Shown here: positions 6,775 through 45,559 of the stretch, one piece after another | Position numbering within the stretch: position 1 is the first letter of the stretch | Layout: every line of letters starts with the position of its first letter | DNA from: Alphaproteobacteria bacterium | GTDB taxonomy: Bacteria; Pseudomonadota; Alphaproteobacteria; Rickettsiales; SXRF01 | Direction: 5' to 3' | Assembly: GCA_025360605.1 (NCBI GenBank) | Contig: JANYBV010000052.1 | Coordinates: 62,001 to 126,000, forward strand | DNA length: 64,000 nucleotides | The notes under the pieces: model-generated | Told to the model about the DNA's origin: nothing | Databases searched by the model: none | What the model saw: the letters and a program-made list of their open reading frames with translations, nothing else | Position numbers and translations under genes: made by a program

Positions 6775-7596
6775 ATGACCATGTCACTGATGAAGCAGTT
6801 TTATGTCGACCGTTACCTCCATATACGCTCGTTCAGCATCCAGCTGGTTGTTACCACACTGATGTGTGCTGCTTTATACAGTTATCACTCATCAGAGTTT
6901 TACCATTTTCATTTTGCTTTATGGAACCTTGCCCTGATTCCACTAGGCATTTATGTCGGTGGTGTGTCAGCGGTGTTTATCCATAACGCCACCCACACCA
7001 GCTTCCCCAACAAATGGCTGAATGAAACCTGCGGCTACCTGTCCGGTTTGCACCAGTTATGGGGATTCATGGGCTGGAAACTGATCCATCTCGTACATCA
7101 CCAGTATTCCGATAATCTCGCCATGGACCCGCACCCTCCGGGCGACCTGACCTTCTGGCAGTTCGCCCGCCAGATGTTTATCCATTCATCACACAAAATC
7201 TCGGAGCGCTACCGCGAACACTGGGGTGAAAATCCGCTGACGCTGAAATTACAGAAAACCGTCAATATCATGTTTCCCGTCGTAGCATTCGCTAACCTTG
7301 TGTTCTGGTTTTTGCTGCTGGGGCCGGTAGGTTTTGTATTCTTTTACATCCCGTCCTATATCTCCAACCATCTGCTGTTTGTGGATGTGAATTACAGTGC
7401 GCACCCTAAGGATGAAGGGGGTAACACCAGTGCCGCCAACCTGACCGATTCAATGTACTACAAAGTGGCGAATCTGTGCTGGTTCGGCATTTACTATCAC
7501 GGCAATCACCACCGCCGCCCGATGCTGTTTAATCCGAAATACATGCCGGTTAAGGAACGTCAATCCGCCAAAGAAGATCTCGACCTCGCTGCATAA
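6775..7596 (+). CDS. Fatty acid desaturase family membrane protein
   Basis: A di-iron membrane oxygenase of the fatty acid desaturase superfamily, shown by its three histidine boxes HNATH, HLVHH and YHGNHH set between hydrophobic segments. Such enzymes use oxygen and an electron donor to desaturate or hydroxylate acyl chains at the membrane; the substrate here is unknown. The frame is open back to an ATG at 6664, which would add 37 basic residues. I prefer 6775 (MTMSLMKQF), preceded by GAGAGAAAG, because it leaves room for promoters towards the divergent prepilin-like gene. The lipoprotein gene follows at once: its ribosome-binding site overlaps this stop codon. Confidence 0.85.
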   Translation: MTMSLMKQFYVDRYLHIRSFSIQLVVTTLMCAALYSYHSSEFYHFHFALWNLALIPLGIYVGGVSAVFIHNATHTSFPNKWLNETCGYLSGLHQLWGFMGWKLIHLVHHQYSDNLAMDPHPPGDLTFWQFARQMFIHSSHKISERYREHWGENPLTLKLQKTVNIMFPVVAFANLVFWFLLLGPVGFVFFYIPSYISNHLLFVDVNYSAHPKDEGGNTSAANLTDSMYYKVANLCWFGIYYHGNHHRRPMLFNPKYMPVKERQSAKEDLDLAA

Positions 7597-7606
7597 GGAA
7601 ATGGGA

Positions 7607-8416
7607 ATGAACAAACGCTTTTTAATTTCTCTTGTCGTATCCGCCAGCATGCTGGCCGCCTGTTCCGTTAGCCCGAAATATCACTATGTAGAACCCGTGC
7701 CGACGATGCGCCTGACGCTGTTGCCGCATGATACGCTGGCAGTAGGAAAGGCTGTGGAAGTTGACGGCAAAATCACCAATGAGAAAACACTTTCACTGCT
7801 GAAAGATGACGCGTTTGAAGTCAAGCATACCCGTAAAATTCACCTGCTGGTCATTGATCCTTCGCTCACCGACTACCAGCATATCCACCCTGAACCTACC
7901 GCGACTTCCGGTGTATTCGGCTTTAAGTTCACCCCTAAAAAAGAGGGGTATTACCGCGTATGGGCCGATGTCACTCCGGTATCCACCCACAAACAGGAAT
8001 TTGTAGTAGCTGACCTCGGGCAGCGTAAAGCCGCCACTATAGATAAAACCGAAAGCAGTGCGGCAACGGTGGATGGCTATCACTTTGTCCTTACCTTTGA
8101 TAAGCCACTGGTGGAGGGCAATGAGTCGATGGGCACCATCAAGATAACCGATGCCAAAGGCGGCAGCGTATCATCCCTGCAACCGCTGATGGGGGCATTT
8201 GGGCACATGGTCGGATTTTATGATGACTTCCATACCATTTTGCACACGCACCCACTGGGTGATGAACCCAAGAGCGATAAAGAGCGTGGCGGGCCGGAAC
8301 TATCATTCCACCTGATGCCTGCCAAAGCAGGTTTCATCAAACTATTCGCACAGGTGAAGATCAACAATAAGGAACTCTATGTTCCTTTCGGCGTGATTGT
8401 CAAAGCTGCTAACTAA
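7607..8416 (+). CDS. Histidine-rich putative lipoprotein, YtkA-like
   Basis: A 269-residue exported lipoprotein: the N-terminal MNKRFLISLVV is followed by the lipobox LAAC (Cys at 19). The mature protein appears to hold two beta-rich halves, with histidine clusters DYQHIHPEP in the first and GHMVGFYDDFHTILHTHPLG in the second. These resemble YtkA-like and metal-associated periplasmic proteins, so metal (possibly copper) binding is an inference. AAGGAA lies directly against an earlier ATG at 7601 but six bases before 7607, which decides the start. It is probably cotranscribed with the desaturase upstream, so it may serve that di-iron enzyme or membrane homeostasis. Confidence 0.75.
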   Translation: MNKRFLISLVVSASMLAACSVSPKYHYVEPVPTMRLTLLPHDTLAVGKAVEVDGKITNEKTLSLLKDDAFEVKHTRKIHLLVIDPSLTDYQHIHPEPTATSGVFGFKFTPKKEGYYRVWADVTPVSTHKQEFVVADLGQRKAATIDKTESSAATVDGYHFVLTFDKPLVEGNESMGTIKITDAKGGSVSSLQPLMGAFGHMVGFYDDFHTILHTHPLGDEPKSDKERGGPELSFHLMPAKAGFIKLFAQVKINNKELYVPFGVIVKAAN

Positions 8417-8589
8417 GCTGCGTACTGACGTTTCCTGAAGCGGCTCAGGCCGAACATACCACCGATCACAGCAGCAAACATCGGCAGCGATGCAGGCAAC
8501 GGAACCGTGGAAACCACATTGGTGGCAGTGCTGGTGGCGATGGTGGAGGCAATAAAAGCAGCAGTGGTGAGTACGGTACGGAGTGTCAT
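8413..8589 (-). CDS. 58-residue VPLPA-CTERM sorting-signal microprotein
   Basis: Very small protein: an N-terminal signal-peptide-like segment (about residues 1-22, Thr/Ala-rich), about six linker residues, then VPLPASLPMFAAVIGGMFGL and a basic end SRFRKRQ. The last part matches the architecture of VPLPA-CTERM tails (a VPLPA box, a hydrophobic helix and an arginine-rich end) that are recognised by exosortases. Almost nothing lies between signal and tail. AAAGGGA sits eight bases before this ATG and supports the start over a TTG six codons upstream. Its stop codon overlaps the stop of the convergent lipoprotein gene. It could be a real microprotein or the remnant of a larger sorted protein. 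Confidence 0.65.
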   Translation of the reverse strand: MTLRTVLTTAAFIASTIATSTATNVVSTVPLPASLPMFAAVIGGMFGLSRFRKRQYAA

Positions 8590-8668
8590 GGCGGCGTCCC
8601 TTTGCAATGGTCATCTATTAATGATTGGACACTGTTTTACCAAGACAAGTCGCCAAAAATAACGTTTA

Positions 8669-10429
8669 TTAACCTACCGGCTGGCAGCGCAGCTCAAGCC
8701 ATTGACGTTCATGGCTTTCCAATGCGACCGCAAGGGATTTCAGCACCCACGCATGGTAAGTATTGAGCCATTTTTTCTCGTCCGCCGTCAACTGCCCAAG
8801 ATCGACTAACCGGTTGTCCAGCGGCGCGCAGGTGAGCGTGTCAAACCCGAGCCAGCCTTTGTCCGGTTCTATCACCGTCACCAGATTTTCAATACGGATG
8901 CCATAGGCTCCGGTTTTGTAATACCCTGGTTCGTTGGACACCACCATACCCACCTTCAGTGCTGCATCGCCGCCGCGTTTGCTGATGCGCTGCGGCCCTT
9001 CATGCACGCCCAAAAAACACCCAACGCCATGTCCGGTGCCGTGGTCGTAATCCAGCCCCGCCTGCCATAAAGGCTGACGCGCCAACACGTCGAGCTGGGA
9101 GCCGGATGTGCCTTCGGGGAAACGCGCCGTAGCGATAGCGATGTGGCCTTTTAAGACGCGGGTGAAACGGTCTTTATGTTCGCCGCTTGGCTCACCGATG
9201 GCAACAGTGCGCGTAATGTCGGTCGTGCCGTCCGGATATTGCCCGCCCGAATCGAGCAGGAACAATTCGCCCTTTTGCAAAGTGCGGTTGCTGCTTTCCG
9301 TCGCGCGGTAATGGACAATCGCACCGTTGGGCCCGCTGCCCGAAATAGTATTGAAACTCGGCTCAACAAATAATGGGCTGAGCGCACGAAACGCCCGCAG
9401 CTTGTCGCTCACTTCCAGTTCGCTGACATTGGTTGCACTGTCTAGCCAGCACAACAGCTTCACAATAGCCACACCATCACGGATATGGGCATTGCGGATA
9501 CCTTGCAGCTCGGTGGCGTTCTTGGTGGCTTTGGGCAAGATGCACGGGTCCTGCGCCTCGATAATTTTTGCGCCCGCTTTGGTGAGCGTTTGTGTGAACC
9601 ACACCGGAACACTCGCAGGGTCACACAACACGCTGTAATGCTCCGCACCTATCCCAACCAGATTGTTTTCCAGCGTCGCAGGCGGACAAATTTCGACATG
9701 GTTGCCCAGATGCGCCGACACTTCCGCGCTGCAACGGCTGGCATCGATGAACAAGCGAACACTACCTTCGCGGTCGATCAGTGCGCTCGCCAGCAGCAAC
9801 GGCGTACATTCTACATCGCGGGCGCGGATGTTGAGCAGCCAGCACACCGCATCCGGTGCGGCAATGACAGCGACATCGGCCTTTTCTTTCACCAGTTGCT
9901 GCGCGATGCGCGCACGCTTGCTGGCGGATTCTTCACCGGCATATTTCTGCTGGTGGATAAATAACAACGTCGAGGGAACGGGCGGACGTTCCTGCCATAT
10001 CGGGTCAATCAGGTTAGTAACAGGCACCAGCTCGATCTGTTTTTTCTTCAGCACCGATTCAATGCGTCGCACCATCGCCACAGTAAACAAACGCGGGTCA
10101 TACCCCACCTTGTTACCGGATGACAACGCGTCCGCCACCCATGTTTCAGGGGCAAGCGAACCGCTGTTGTGCAGTTCAAAAACCGTTGTATCCACTTCGT
10201 TTTTGGCCTGAATGGTATAGCGCCCGTCGGTGAATAAAGCGGCCTTGTCAGCAGTTACCGCCACCATCCCCGCTGAGCCGGTAAAGCCGCTGATAAAGGC
10301 TACCCGCTGGTTGGAAGCGGGTGGATATTCGCTCATATATTCATCGTTAACCGGCTGAAGATACGCATCAACCATCTGTTTTTTAAATAAATTCCTTAAT
10401 TTCTGAATTGTATTGAAAGCCTCTTCCAT
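8669..10429 (-). CDS. pepP: Aminopeptidase P family protein (Xaa-Pro aminopeptidase)
   Basis: Metallopeptidase of family M24B that removes N-terminal residues before proline. The 586-residue protein has two N-terminal creatinase-like domains and a C-terminal pita-bread catalytic domain. The metal ligands are visible as the Asp in FLLDSGG, the Asp in GTTDITRT, the His in GTGHGVG, and the Glu in SNEPGYY and IRIENL. The extra N-terminal domain and C-terminal tail match the long eukaryote-like aminopeptidase P common in alphaproteobacteria. No signal peptide is visible, so it is cytoplasmic. It stands alone in this orientation, divergent from the Bmp-like gene. Confidence 0.92.
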   Translation of the reverse strand: MEEAFNTIQKLRNLFKKQMVDAYLQPVNDEYMSEYPPASNQRVAFISGFTGSAGMVAVTADKAALFTDGRYTIQAKNEVDTTVFELHNSGSLAPETWVADALSSGNKVGYDPRLFTVAMVRRIESVLKKKQIELVPVTNLIDPIWQERPPVPSTLLFIHQQKYAGEESASKRARIAQQLVKEKADVAVIAAPDAVCWLLNIRARDVECTPLLLASALIDREGSVRLFIDASRCSAEVSAHLGNHVEICPPATLENNLVGIGAEHYSVLCDPASVPVWFTQTLTKAGAKIIEAQDPCILPKATKNATELQGIRNAHIRDGVAIVKLLCWLDSATNVSELEVSDKLRAFRALSPLFVEPSFNTISGSGPNGAIVHYRATESSNRTLQKGELFLLDSGGQYPDGTTDITRTVAIGEPSGEHKDRFTRVLKGHIAIATARFPEGTSGSQLDVLARQPLWQAGLDYDHGTGHGVGCFLGVHEGPQRISKRGGDAALKVGMVVSNEPGYYKTGAYGIRIENLVTVIEPDKGWLGFDTLTCAPLDNRLVDLGQLTADEKKWLNTYHAWVLKSLAVALESHERQWLELRCQPVG

Positions 10430-38287: not shown

Positions 38288-38728
38288 TTAACCCGGCAAA
38301 TGGGGGCCGGATTGGGAGGATGCTATCTGTAAGTCTTTGACATGCTTACCATCAATGACCGAAACGCCATTTGGGTCTGTGATGTTGGGGGAAGCCACAT
38401 CAGGACCCGCCATAGCGCCGGTACGGCGTAATTTCTCTTTCTGGGCAAACATGCCTTCAACCGGCTGCTCACCCATCATGGTCATCGGCATCGCCGGAGC
38501 CGCAGGCGTAAATTCTAATACGGGAGGAAGCGGATCGGTGAGATCCTTAGGCATCGGCACATCGGCTTCATCGAAACGGCGGCTACTTCGCAAACCACCA
38601 ACGACAAAAGGAAGCGTCACAGCAGCAGCACCCAGCAAACCAATCAAAGGAGCCTTCTTCAGGAGGCTGCCATTCGGCTTCCACCATGCTCTCTTGACTA
38701 CGTCTGCAACTACCTGCTCACCAGCCAT
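38288..38728 (-). CDS. Unknown protein with one membrane helix and Pro-rich tail
   Basis: A 146-residue protein. Residues 1-25 are polar (VVKRAWWKPNGSLLKKAP), one Gly/Ala-rich membrane helix follows (LIGLLGAAAVTLPFVVGGL), and the rest is a proline-, methionine- and aspartate-rich tail with no clear fold (PLPPVLEFTPAAPAMPMTMM). No family is recognised. It is the last of four similar membrane genes and starts 18 bases after the preceding one ends, so those two are surely one transcript. It lies upstream of the rpsD promoter. Confidence 0.7.
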   Translation of the reverse strand: MAGEQVVADVVKRAWWKPNGSLLKKAPLIGLLGAAAVTLPFVVGGLRSSRRFDEADVPMPKDLTDPLPPVLEFTPAAPAMPMTMMGEQPVEGMFAQKEKLRRTGAMAGPDVASPNITDPNGVSVIDGKHVKDLQIASSQSGPHLPG

Positions 38729-38746
38729 ACTGGCTTACCTGATTAT

Positions 38747-39448
38747 TTATACGAGTTGTTGTGGATTCGCCGCTTTATCCTGACGTTCTTTAATCACGGC
38801 TTCTGCCTTGCATTCACAGGATGCATGGGCAGCAAATTTGTCAGCGTGTTTTTTACCATGTTCACCGGCATTCGCCATCTGCATCTGTTCCGCCTGCTGC
38901 GCCTGCATCATCTGCATCTGGATTGCCTGAACCACTTCTTCACGGCCTTCCTGCTTAGCCGCTTCAAGACGCGGTGTCATGTCCTTCACTGCAAGCGCAT
39001 AACCTTCATCGAGGCCTTTAACTTCGCCGTCATTGTAGGTCTTGGCCATTTTGTTTTCATGACCCTGCATCTTTTCAGTAACGCGGGTACGGAATGCGCT
39101 GGATTCGCGGCTCACCTGATCCGCTCCCTTAAGCGCACCGATGCCACCACCAACAACCGCAGAAATACCACCATACGAAACGCCGGACGCGATAGCGCCA
39201 ATAGCAGCGACAATACCGGTAGCCACTGCACCGGTACCACCGAGCAATCCGCCAACGCCGGCAGCAAAACCAAATCCCGCAAGAGATGCAGCAAGACCAC
39301 CAACCAGCAATAACGCACCACCCGCCAGTAACCCACCAACCAAAGCCGCACCAACACCGCCTATAAGGCCATATTTGACTGCTTTAGAGCCCACCGTTGC
39401 TACGGTACTCAAACCATCATGATTAATCGGGTCCGCTGAACTAGCCAT
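38747..39448 (-). CDS. Unknown Gly-zipper membrane protein with helical Gln-rich tail
   Basis: A 233-residue protein with about 90 residues (25-115) of almost pure Gly, Ala, Val, Leu and Ile in GxxxG-type spacing (IGGVGAALVGGLLAGGALLL), enough for three or four tightly packed helices. Residues 120-233 are hydrophilic and helical, with MQGHENKMAKTYNDGE, a Gln/Met stretch (MQMMQAQQAEQMQMAN) and a late CEC pair. No family is recognised. It has its own candidate control region, a 26-bp palindrome upstream of a TATAAT. It is probably the main gene of the cluster. Confidence 0.7.
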   Translation of the reverse strand: MASSADPINHDGLSTVATVGSKAVKYGLIGGVGAALVGGLLAGGALLLVGGLAASLAGFGFAAGVGGLLGGTGAVATGIVAAIGAIASGVSYGGISAVVGGGIGALKGADQVSRESSAFRTRVTEKMQGHENKMAKTYNDGEVKGLDEGYALAVKDMTPRLEAAKQEGREEVVQAIQMQMMQAQQAEQMQMANAGEHGKKHADKFAAHASCECKAEAVIKERQDKAANPQQLV

Positions 39449-39491
39449 AAAATGCCTCTAAAATTCGCTAAAAATACTATATAATCAAATA

Positions 39492-39533
39492 ATTATACAA
39501 TGACCATGCTGACATTATGACATAATAGTCAGC
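39492..39533 (-). promoter_or_regulatory. TATAAT box with overlapping operator-like palindrome
   Basis: Positions 39508-39533 hold an imperfect inverted repeat with half-sites GCTGACATTATG and CATAATAGTCAGC, which match except for one extra base. On the minus strand a perfect TATAAT lies at 39492-39497, and the palindrome covers the place where the -35 box should be; no TTGACA-like box is seen there. This layout suits an activator or repressor controlling the gene starting at 39448. Confidence 0.55.
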
Positions 39534-39616
39534 ACAAACAAGTTAAGGTTTTGTTACAATGAATTTTTGGAGGTTTTTTAGCCTTTCAGAGGCTAAGGCC
39601 GCCTGATGGCGTGAAA

Positions 39617-39973
39617 TTAGCGTCCGCCCACCGCACGCGGATTTACCGGCGGCTTGCCTTGTGGCAATGCTCCGGGGCCTTCCATTTTGGGCTGAGGGCC
39701 TGCTGCAGGTGCTTTCACTGCCGGACCAGTGACCGGAACGACCGGAGCCGAAGCTTCACCGCCCATACCACCTACCGCATTACCCACCATAAGCCCCGCA
39801 ATACCACCGCCCACTGCGGCCAGTATTTCATATCCTACCATGCCGCCAATCAGTTCCGGCAACAACAATCCGCCCACAGCGGCACCGGCGGCGATACCAA
39901 TGATGCTGGACCATTTGATGCCGCCCTCTTCATTGATAAACATGCCTTTGATCGAATCGAGTAAACCGCCCAT
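39617..39973 (-). CDS. Unknown small Gly-zipper membrane protein with Pro-rich tail
   Basis: A 118-residue protein: residues 1-20 amphipathic, then about 50 residues of Gly/Ala-rich hydrophobic sequence (IIGIAAGAAVGGLLLPELIG and GYEILAAVGGGIAGLMVGN), probably a helical hairpin, then a Pro/Gly/Ala tail (about residues 73-118) that ends with PRAVGGR. No family is recognised. It lies 62 bases after the 191-residue gene and 168 bases before the 233-residue gene, all in the same direction. Confidence 0.65.
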   Translation of the reverse strand: MGGLLDSIKGMFINEEGGIKWSSIIGIAAGAAVGGLLLPELIGGMVGYEILAAVGGGIAGLMVGNAVGGMGGEASAPVVPVTGPAVKAPAAGPQPKMEGPGALPQGKPPVNPRAVGGR

Positions 39974-40035
39974 AATTGATACCCTTTACGTGCTTTTTGA
40001 AGGTTTATAGTACATTCTTTTCGTTAACAAATCCG

Positions 40036-40611
40036 TTACGCATGGGCGTGCCCTGCATCCGGCCCCATACGCCCTTTTGCCTGCGGAATTTGCATCCCTG
40101 GGCCTTTCATAGCCTGCGACTGACGCTCCATGGCAAAACGCTGCTCGTCACGGCGTTTTTCTAATGCCGACATGCGCTCGCGGCGCGATTCCATTTGTTC
40201 GTATTTCGCTACCAGCCGGTCTTCCTCGGCATCTGCGGCTTCACCCGCACTGGAAATGCTGACCAGCGCGCCCACCGCAGCACCCACCGCGCCACCAACC
40301 ATGGCCGTAGTCGTAGCAGCACCTACCGCAAAACTCGTACCTTGCGCCGCTGCCCATTCGGGTGCAAACACGCCAAGAGCTGCCACCACCGGAATCGCTA
40401 ACCATCCCATGGATATAGTAGCAGCAAGCGACGCAAATGCCACAGCCGCAACGCCTGCTAACGCGCCAATAGCACCCCATTTAAGGGCGCTTTTAATAAC
40501 ATGTTTAACGATGAAGCCAGTACGATTGAAATTTCGGAGCGCAGGATGCTTGCCAAAGCCTTGCGACTCCTCCTCCTCAAAATCATGATCGCTTTTACTG
40601 TCTCGACCCAT
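40036..40611 (-). CDS. Unknown membrane protein with helical hairpins and charged coiled-coil tail
   Basis: A 191-residue protein. Residues 1-35 are acidic then polar (FEEEESQGFGKHPALRNFN). Residues of about 38-125 are Gly/Ala-rich membrane segments (ALKWGAIGALAGVAAVAFAS, then WLAIPVVAALGVF, then TAMVGGAVGAAVGALVSI). Residues 130-170 form a charged helix likely to be a coiled coil (EEDRLVAKYEQMESRRERMS), followed by KGRMGPDAGHAHA. No family is recognised. It is the first of the four membrane genes, and the 187-base gap before it should hold its promoter; TTGACA occurs there, but no matching -10 box was found. Confidence 0.68.
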   Translation of the reverse strand: MGRDSKSDHDFEEEESQGFGKHPALRNFNRTGFIVKHVIKSALKWGAIGALAGVAAVAFASLAATISMGWLAIPVVAALGVFAPEWAAAQGTSFAVGAATTTAMVGGAVGAAVGALVSISSAGEAADAEEDRLVAKYEQMESRRERMSALEKRRDEQRFAMERQSQAMKGPGMQIPQAKGRMGPDAGHAHA

Positions 40612-40798
40612 GGTAAAATAATCCTTAGTTTACTGTACTATTAACACTACTATCTCATAAATGCCTAAAGTCTGCAAATTAAGGTTTGATGACGTGAAAA
40701 AATAACGATTTTCCGGCTGTCACAAAACTGTCAAACAGGCTCCAGATGCCGTTATCAGGCTATTAAAAATAGAAATATTATTAATATAAATAAATAGG

Positions 40799-41119
40799 TT
40801 AGTTCTTATCGCTGTCGATCACCAGCGCACCTACGATTTTGCCCGTGCAGAGGTCAATACTGACCGTTTCGTCCTGTCCTGCCTGTTTTTTAAGCTCAAT
40901 TCGTATAATATGACCATCTGTCATGCGGTTAACTATCTTTCCGCGCCCTGTGAGGTCTATTTTACCGCCGGCACACTCGGACGCCGCATGCGCTTTCATG
41001 GCTTCCTGCGACACTTTTTTCCATACCACCGCCATCAGCAGCACCGTACCGCCAATCAGCAACACCCCCATCGAAATGACTAGCGTTTTAAGCGGGTTTG
41101 CGTTTTGTTTGGAACTCAT
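40799..41119 (-). CDS. Small membrane-anchored protein, DUF6476-like
   Basis: A 106-residue protein with one membrane helix (about residues 10-32, LVISMGVLLIGGTVLLMAVVW) and a soluble beta-rich domain of about 65 residues (GHIIRIELKKQAGQDETVSI). In many alphaproteobacteria a small protein of this shape (DUF6476) sits next to an RluA-family gene, and here the RluA gene is divergent with 27 bases between starts. The assignment is by shape and position, so it is tentative. Confidence 0.65.
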   Translation of the reverse strand: MSSKQNANPLKTLVISMGVLLIGGTVLLMAVVWKKVSQEAMKAHAASECAGGKIDLTGRGKIVNRMTDGHIIRIELKKQAGQDETVSIDLCTGKIVGALVIDSDKN

Positions 41120-43889: not shown

Positions 43890-44036
43890 ATGAAGAAAAT
43901 GTTGATCATCAGCTTAACCGCCCTTTCGCTGCTTTCTGCCTGCAACACCATTCAGGGTGTCGGGCAAGACCTGAGCGCGGCCGGTGAAGGCGTTGCCCAC
44001 ACGGCTGAAAAAACCAAGGAAAAAATCAGCAAGTAA
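43890..44036 (+). CDS. Entericidin-like small lipoprotein
   Basis: A 48-residue protein preceded by AAGGAG six bases before the ATG. The signal MKKMLIISLTALSLLSAC gives a lipobox LSAC with Cys18. The mature peptide (NTIQGVGQDLSAAGEGVAHT and a Lys/Glu-rich end) is the entericidin A/B pattern, in which an amphipathic helix follows a short lipidated start. Entericidins are membrane-active or stress-related lipoproteins. Only one copy is seen here, so an antidote/toxin pair is not evident. Confidence 0.88.
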   Translation: MKKMLIISLTALSLLSACNTIQGVGQDLSAAGEGVAHTAEKTKEKISK

Positions 44037-44464: not shown

Positions 44465-45559
44465 CTACCGCCCGCCGAGAGACACGAGTTTAGAGCTTTG
44501 GCGGTCACTTACATACGCGTATTTTTTTAAGGAAATACGGTCGCCTGCCGCAAAAACAGCCTTTTGATGCTCCAACTCGTCAAAAGTACGTAATGTGTCG
44601 GATGGCTCCAGTTTCCATATCTTTTGCTGCCCGATCACCGTACCCTCCCCGTCCCTGATGACAAGGCCAGTACGCTCATCAATGCCAAGGCCGATACAGT
44701 CTTTGTGGTCATTGACCGCCAGCTGCAACCGTTCCAGCCGGTGGTATTCCGGATGCCGGTGCAGGTGAGTATCGACAATCACTTTGCTGAGGAAACCGAA
44801 CCCAGACCCCATCACCGGACCGGAATGGTCCGTATTCCAGTCCATTATCGTTTTCCCGTCACCCGACATCACCGCCGCACCGGCGGAACTGCCAGACACC
44901 GTAAACGAACTATCGTTCAGGTAACGGTCGCGAATGGCGTGATAGGCTTTCGTATCGAAAAAATTCTTCATCAGTAGCGATTGGTTCCCGCCATCAAAAT
45001 ACACTAGGCTGGTGTCGCTGTTTGTGAGTTTTTCAACGATCGCATCATCGTTGGCTGCATCCTTGGTTCCGATGGCAACCACTTCACTCGCACCCAGCAG
45101 CTTAAACAAAACGGTATCGAGCCACTCGTTGCGCTGCGCATGTTGCTCAGATGCACTGGTTACGCAGACAACCCTGCGCCCGTTGATCGGCGCGAATGTC
45201 CCAATAGCCCTGAACAAACCCGCGAAATCAACCTTATCGGTGAGATCTTCAAGCTGCTGCGTCGGCAAGGTCATCAGCATTTTGTCCGGATCTTTCAGCA
45301 GTTCCGCATCAATCCCCATCTGTTCCGCTGTTTCAGGAATTCGTGATCCAAGCTCCGCCTGCCCGCCCATAATCACGAGAGTTCCTTTGGGGAGGCGTTC
45401 CACGACTTCCCGCGGATGACGTTCTGCAAGGCGATCCACATTATCGGAATGCGAGAGGTTATATCCCACCACCGCAGCGCCGGCACCTAACGCCCCCAGT
45501 GCCAGAAAACTTCTGCGGTTCATTGGAGTTTTTGGATCAGAGCCAGAATGCTTGCCCAT
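44465..45559 (-). CDS. Tat-exported cyanophycinase-like peptidase (family S51)
   Basis: A 364-residue protein. The N-terminus has the twin-arginine motif MNRRSFLALGALGAGAAVVG, so it is probably exported folded. The core shows cyanophycinase hallmarks: VIMGGQAELGSR, FDGGNQSLL (the GGNQ turn) and the nucleophile serine in TVSGSSAGAAVMSG, then DTHLHRHPEYHRLERL and GLGIDERTGLVI. Cyanophycinases release beta-Asp-Arg from cyanophycin. No cyanophycin synthetase is visible, so extracellular polymer or another isoaspartyl peptide could be the substrate. It lies between bolA (14 bases upstream) and grxD. Confidence 0.88.
   Translation of the reverse strand: MGKHSGSDPKTPMNRRSFLALGALGAGAAVVGYNLSHSDNVDRLAERHPREVVERLPKGTLVIMGGQAELGSRIPETAEQMGIDAELLKDPDKMLMTLPTQQLEDLTDKVDFAGLFRAIGTFAPINGRRVVCVTSASEQHAQRNEWLDTVLFKLLGASEVVAIGTKDAANDDAIVEKLTNSDTSLVYFDGGNQSLLMKNFFDTKAYHAIRDRYLNDSSFTVSGSSAGAAVMSGDGKTIMDWNTDHSGPVMGSGFGFLSKVIVDTHLHRHPEYHRLERLQLAVNDHKDCIGLGIDERTGLVIRDGEGTVIGQQKIWKLEPSDTLRTFDELEHQKAVFAAGDRISLKKYAYVSDRQSSKLVSLGGR

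Follow-up and report, generated by a model that had tools for sequence, protein, structure and literature searches.

A conserved hairpin-protein gene cluster beside rpsD as a candidate locus of a PhoB-type regulon in Rickettsiales families

The stretch of DNA analysed here (the window) spans 64,000 nucleotides of an alphaproteobacterial genome (assembly GCA_025360605.1, contig JANYBV010000052.1, positions 62,001 to 126,000). On its minus strand, ahead of rpsD, lie four small genes that an original prediction took to encode Gly-zipper membrane proteins with a joint function; we name them G191, G118, G233 and G146 after the lengths of their products.

40611-40036, minus strand: G191, a 191-aa Gly/Ala-rich hairpin protein and the first gene of the locus
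39973-39617, minus strand: G118, a 118-aa Gly-rich membrane protein with a Pro-rich tail
39448-38747, minus strand: G233, a 233-aa Gly/Ala-rich hairpin protein with a long helical, Gln/Met-rich tail
38728-38288, minus strand: G146, a 146-aa protein with one hydrophobic segment, the conserved last gene before rpsD
38100-37483, minus strand: rpsD, the conserved downstream neighbour, outside the system

Transcription runs from G191 through G118 and G233 to G146, towards rpsD, with successive gaps of 62, 168, 18 and (before rpsD) 187 nt. rpsD has a promoter of its own, TTGACA-N16-TATATT at 38243-38216, and upstream of G191 come a gene for a 106-aa membrane protein and then the divergent rluD. All four reading frames are real same-strand genes, as originally predicted: between the window genome (G000) and a genus-mate (G001), nonsynonymous divergence is 0.40-0.47 against a saturated synonymous divergence of 2.1-3.0, indicating purifying selection, and third codon positions are the most changed. 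Protein identity in this comparison is 49-55% for the four, versus 87% for rpsD and 92% for mraZ, so that the cluster proteins evolve much faster than either.

Each of the four products contains hydrophobic sequence rich in Gly and Ala, again as predicted. G191 carries a conserved N-terminal HPALRNF motif, a conserved GxxxGxxxG at residues 106-114 and a long helical tail; G233 has an N-terminal PINHDxxS motif and conserved glycines at positions 100, 104 and 108; G146 has a conserved TMMGxxPVxGxHA-type tail motif. Counts of GxxxG in single sequences do not exceed those in shuffles of the same segments (P 0.16, 0.12, 0.87), and the zipper claim holds because the glycines themselves are conserved. 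Among 13 relatives, positions 106, 110, 114 and 118 of the G191 family are Gly in 85-100%, with a small residue at 118 in all, and positions 100, 104 and 108 of the G233 family are likewise Gly in 85-100%. The GxxxG-like spacing predicted for three of the proteins thus survives as a conserved zipper in G191 and G233, not as an excess of motifs, and G146 has no zipper. The hairpin domains of G191 and G233 align with an hhalign probability of 96.5%, a figure that composition may inflate, and the two proteins are probably paralogous in this domain. Profile searches against Pfam, NCBIfam, PHROGs and PDB returned sub-threshold matches only for the four proteins; with nothing over the curated cutoffs, these searches gave no membership in a known glycine-zipper or other Pfam or NCBIfam family, and the claim that the four belong to no known family, related or unrelated, held up under homology search. 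AlphaFold models built from seven-sequence alignments reached a mean predicted local distance difference test score of 48 for G233 and 55 for G191, too poor to help decide function.

To place the cluster among its relatives we used families defined by whole-genome grouping (f1, f5 and so on), with the window genome in f1. The order holding f1 reads as Rickettsiales from the relatives' labels (metagenome-assembled genomes named as Rickettsiales, Alphaproteobacteria or Pseudomonadota bacterium), and f1 genomes measure about 1.0-3.3 Mb. G191, G233 and G146 (hereafter the trio) recur in the same order in 14 of 16 f1 genomes, usually between rluD and rpsD; the cassette of G005 is diverged and reordered. 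G118 was seen in G000 and G001 only, a distribution that makes it specific to the genus and places it outside the core. In four further families, diverged clusters of genes for Gly-rich hairpin proteins also lie directly 5' of rpsD, at the following loci.

f29: L102, L103, L107, L110, L123 and L129
f5: L125, L131 and L137
f21: L104 and L108
f17: L076

The N-terminal motif of G233, as P(I/V)(N/D)(H/R)xxxS, recurs in f29 and f5. Among the loci read, trmJ abuts rpsD with nothing between them in f2, f6, f18, f27 and f28, and the cluster therefore looks inserted at the trmJ-rpsD junction. It is also found away from rpsD as a unit, with rluD in two genomes (G008, G015) and with trmJ in two others (G098, G141). 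Outside Rickettsiales, the G233 profile gave two weak matches in 381 alphaproteobacterial genomes. Clustering is thus kept across f1 and at rpsD in f5, f17, f21 and f29, and the joint function proposed for four genes is supported for the trio and lapses for G118.

These comparisons bear on the idea that unrelated small membrane genes, or debris of mobile elements, have simply gathered beside rpsD. Gly/Ala-rich segments do make weak similarity common, and the genus-specific G118 would fit such an origin; against it, the cluster is syntenic across families, is under purifying selection, moves as a unit and shares promoter boxes (described below). Phage and plasmid origins were considered for G233 and G191, respectively, and rejected, as neither gave a match. 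Conserved co-occurrence and the shared boxes already largely refute the debris explanation, and we give it hardly any weight.

The same loci argue against a toxin function modelled on CdzC and CdzD of Caulobacter, neighbouring Gly-zipper proteins that act at the cell surface in contact-dependent killing (PMC5380434). This precedent also concerns tandem Gly-zipper proteins in an alphaproteobacterium, but at the loci read the cluster is flanked by rluD, trmJ, etf or rpsD and has no type I secretion genes alongside. Its proteins are larger than the bacteriocins, carry hydrophilic helical tails and include a one-segment partner, the trio sits beside rpsD, and an immunity-like gene was not recognised. 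Contact-dependent killing is in our estimate an improbable role for the cluster.

Control elements were found upstream of both hairpin genes.

40675-40693, minus strand: Pho-type box GTCATCAAACCTTAATTTG, upstream of G191
40649-40654, minus strand: -10-like element GATAGT of a putative G191 promoter
39539-39557, minus strand: Pho-type box GTAACAAAACCTTAACTTG, upstream of G233, in the region originally predicted to hold internal control elements
39514-39519, minus strand: -10-like element CATAAT of a putative G233 promoter
40717-40733, plus strand: CTGTCACAAAACTGTCA, a perfect match to the canonical pho box, upstream of G191 in the opposite orientation

The two Pho-type boxes share the sequence GTMAYAAAASCTTMAYTT(G), a direct repeat with an 11-bp period (gTCAYaaaa / ctTMAYttg), and each is followed at near-constant spacing by its -10-like element. 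At 40676-40693 and 39540-39557, they are the only sites within two mismatches in the window, where 0.08 would be expected by chance, so the proposed internal control region is borne out and has a partner upstream of G191. In f1 the box stands 5' of G191 at 12 of 12 readable loci with at most one mismatch, and 5' of G233 at 10 of 13, the remaining three having a more degenerate version. Hairpin genes of f29, f21 and f17 are preceded by the box too, as are those of f5, where it is mostly degenerate. In E. coli, the phoE (TGTAATAAAAGCGTAAAC) and pstS (TGTCATAAAACTGTCATA) pho boxes (PMC10294691) agree with it at 15 of 18 positions, a level that 0 and 3 of 100,000 shuffles reach, respectively. Searched with the canonical pho box at up to three mismatches, the window yields one match, the site at 40717-40733, which has none; 39 of 100 shuffles contain some match at three mismatches. 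A generic scan of the region for promoters and terminators found no excess over shuffles, and Rfam gave one chance-level match. A strong palindrome over the G233 -10 region was rejected as a control element, since relatives do not conserve it.

A candidate regulator for these boxes is PhoB. The genome encodes a protein that matches the PhoB equivalog TIGR02154 at 339.8 bits (cutoff 296.2), with the recognition helix RTVDVHVRRLRK, and all three cluster-bearing genomes scanned pass this cutoff. In the six cluster-bearing genomes examined, PhoB falls in a close clade with the recognition helix RTVDVH(V/I)RRLRK, and no kinase was recognised next to phoB. Resemblance of the boxes to known PhoB targets suggests that PhoB would bind them.

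We then searched 13 genomes with the box pattern, allowing one mismatch. Eight cluster-bearing genomes contained 10, 10, 14, 9, 5, 4, 6 and 1 sites, whereas five genomes from families in which no cluster was seen contained none in four cases and one in the fifth; a reversed control pattern had no match in any of the 13. From the beginning of the box to the start codon it is mostly 70-95 nt. As read from their sequences, the genes that follow are mostly uncharacterised, and many encode a Gly-rich hydrophobic hairpin. The window genome has a second hairpin cluster of this kind, encoding proteins of 337, 266, 150 and 171 aa (L109, G000:C3:14000-33500, 7343-10253, minus strand), which has two boxes with weaker pho-type matches and adjoins a VOC-family gene and proS; a related cluster with the same neighbours occurs in f17 (L105). 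Other box genes of the window genome include a pair encoding 271 and 635 aa, a gene for a Pro/Ala-rich protein of 793 aa that has a Gly hairpin, and one for an 823-aa HD-domain protein. Relatives carry boxes before apparent counterparts of these genes, before ankyrin-like genes (L251), before a Gly-hairpin gene with weak transglutaminase-like similarity (L242) and before tandem genes for small soluble proteins that look paralogous (L255 and L258 in G006; L241 in G007) and have no Pfam match above cutoff. Isolated matches, for instance upstream of a MotA-like gene or of an aldehyde dehydrogenase, could have arisen by chance. Among the box matches, pst and phosphatase genes were not seen. The claim of one four-gene system accordingly needs recasting: a joint role is supported for three of the genes, and the unit appears larger, the cluster being one locus of a PhoB-type regulon that includes the second hairpin cluster.

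How these proteins reach a membrane was addressed through their hydrophobicity, with insertion-energy parameters checked against the window's own membrane and soluble proteins alone. The computed minimum over 12-17 residues (the signal recognition particle, or SRP, window dG) ranged from -1.3 to +0.8 for 23 proteins of the set; for eight of the window's ordinary membrane proteins the range was -1.3 to -2.9. Published membrane substrates of type III and type IVB secretion systems fall mostly in the range -1.5 to 0.5 and for the most part avoid SRP (PMC6110835; review PMC12981334). Inspection by eye found no obvious signal peptide in the cluster and box-gene proteins, and the genome has three VirB4-family (PF03135) genes over cutoff. 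Moderate hydrophobicity, the lineage-specific content of the set and the VirB4-family genes together favour proteins that insert late, possibly after translocation, and that would assemble by way of their zipper faces.

Taken together, these data lead us to prefer, tentatively and at somewhat less than even chances, the explanation that the cluster is a core locus of a PhoB-type regulon in five Rickettsiales families whose hairpin proteins are deployed on other membranes or cells. PhoB would bind the 11-bp direct-repeat boxes where they abut the -35 region and switch on two transcription units, G191(-G118) and G233-G146. The moderately hydrophobic Gly/Ala-rich hairpins would enter membranes post-translationally, and conserved glycine zippers and helical tails would pack the proteins into hetero-oligomers. 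The products may then act on other membranes or cells as transmembrane effectors or a translocator-like assembly, perhaps via a type IV secretion system. Deployment of this sort seems the likeliest outcome, as the co-regulated genes evolve fast, are confined to particular lineages and for the most part encode no known domain. More speculatively, and in our view less likely than not, PhoB may control a whole repertoire of translocated effectors, both membrane and soluble, across Rickettsiales families with large genomes; the box would mark its members and the trio would be its conserved core (e.g. a translocator in the target membrane).

Several observations weigh against the preferred explanation. 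No type IV secretion gene is among the box matches, and in the C-termini inspected neither a shared pattern nor a uniform charge was seen. Segments rich in Gly and Ala are moderately hydrophobic in any case, so this property does not single out secreted proteins. In G020, PhoB lies beside a pstB-like gene, yet boxes and cluster are both missing; PhoB presence is therefore not sufficient for the pattern, and we rejected it as a distinguishing feature on its own. Finally, a core that keeps its place next to rpsD is more suggestive of a core function than of a variable effector. For this last reason an assembly in the producer's own membrane is nearly as likely as export: under the same PhoB-type regulon, the proteins would stay in the cell that makes them and curve, stiffen or partition its membrane, or form a coat on a storage or membrane compartment, in response to a fall in phosphate or in some other signal. 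Membrane-shaping proteins commonly combine a hairpin with a long helix. This possibility, to which we assign roughly one chance in three, is also suited by the synteny of the core trio across families and its movement as one unit, by the apparent paralogy of G191 and G233 and by control through pho-type boxes. It accounts less well for the fast evolution within the genus, for co-regulated genes that are lineage-specific and include ankyrin-like and soluble tandem families, and for segments less hydrophobic than those of ordinary membrane proteins in the window.

Known systems resemble the proposed regulon in part. With the Pho regulon the cluster shares its direct-repeat box of 11-bp period, a PhoB equivalog in the genome and the canonical pho box beside G191; it differs in that the targets seen are uncharacterised hairpin and soluble proteins and that the second half-site is CTTMAYTTG, not CTGTCAY, and the phosphate response is a prediction. 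Type III and IV transmembrane effectors (e.g. those of Legionella and the Chlamydia Incs) similarly lack an obvious signal peptide, have one moderately hydrophobic hairpin and helical soluble parts and are poorly conserved in sequence. The present proteins, as putative effectors, differ in that no shared C-terminal signal was seen and in the fixed chromosomal position of their core genes. PmrA, a regulator of the OmpR/PhoB family, controls effector sets in Legionella and Coxiella, where one response-regulator-type box likewise precedes many unrelated uncharacterised genes; here the box is PhoB-type, the bacterial order is another and secretion is putative.

Other features were recorded near these loci. 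VirB8- and VirB9-like genes, identified by eye at 7281-8857 (minus strand), lie upstream of the rpsD-linked hairpin cluster of L076 (G066:C19, f17); they were not seen at other loci and we did not use them as evidence. The 106-aa protein between the cluster and rluD (40799-41119, minus strand) has a single span, matches DUF6476 below threshold only and is kept in several family members (L026, L034, L072). A 48-aa ORF at 43890-44036 (plus strand), 3' of a thiamine-dependent decarboxylase-like gene, resembles a small entericidin-like lipoprotein, and short ORFs like it occur near the same place in L026 and L030. Between grxD and bolA, a gene at 44465-45559 (minus strand) encodes a 364-aa protein that by eye has a twin-arginine-like N-terminus and cyanophycinase-like (peptidase S51-like) sequence; it is absent from that place in several relatives.

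Pho-type regulation and hairpin membrane proteins are known in kind, whereas the trio and its regulon appear undescribed: we found no family, structure or description of either in databases or open-access literature. Basal Rickettsiales are reported to carry the rvh type IV secretion system, with only a few effectors that can be recognised (PMC9352585), and all basal families are reported to lack experimental data (PMC10847448). Against this background, four orphan ORFs become a testable regulon of membrane proteins specific to one order, for which a promoter box is defined and a candidate regulator can be named. By singling out uncharacterised proteins, the box offers a concrete entry, whether to effectors or to a phosphate-responsive membrane assembly. 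If it does mark an effector repertoire, the box would be a handle for listing effectors across these uncultured families and a way to ask what role secretion systems had before intracellular life.
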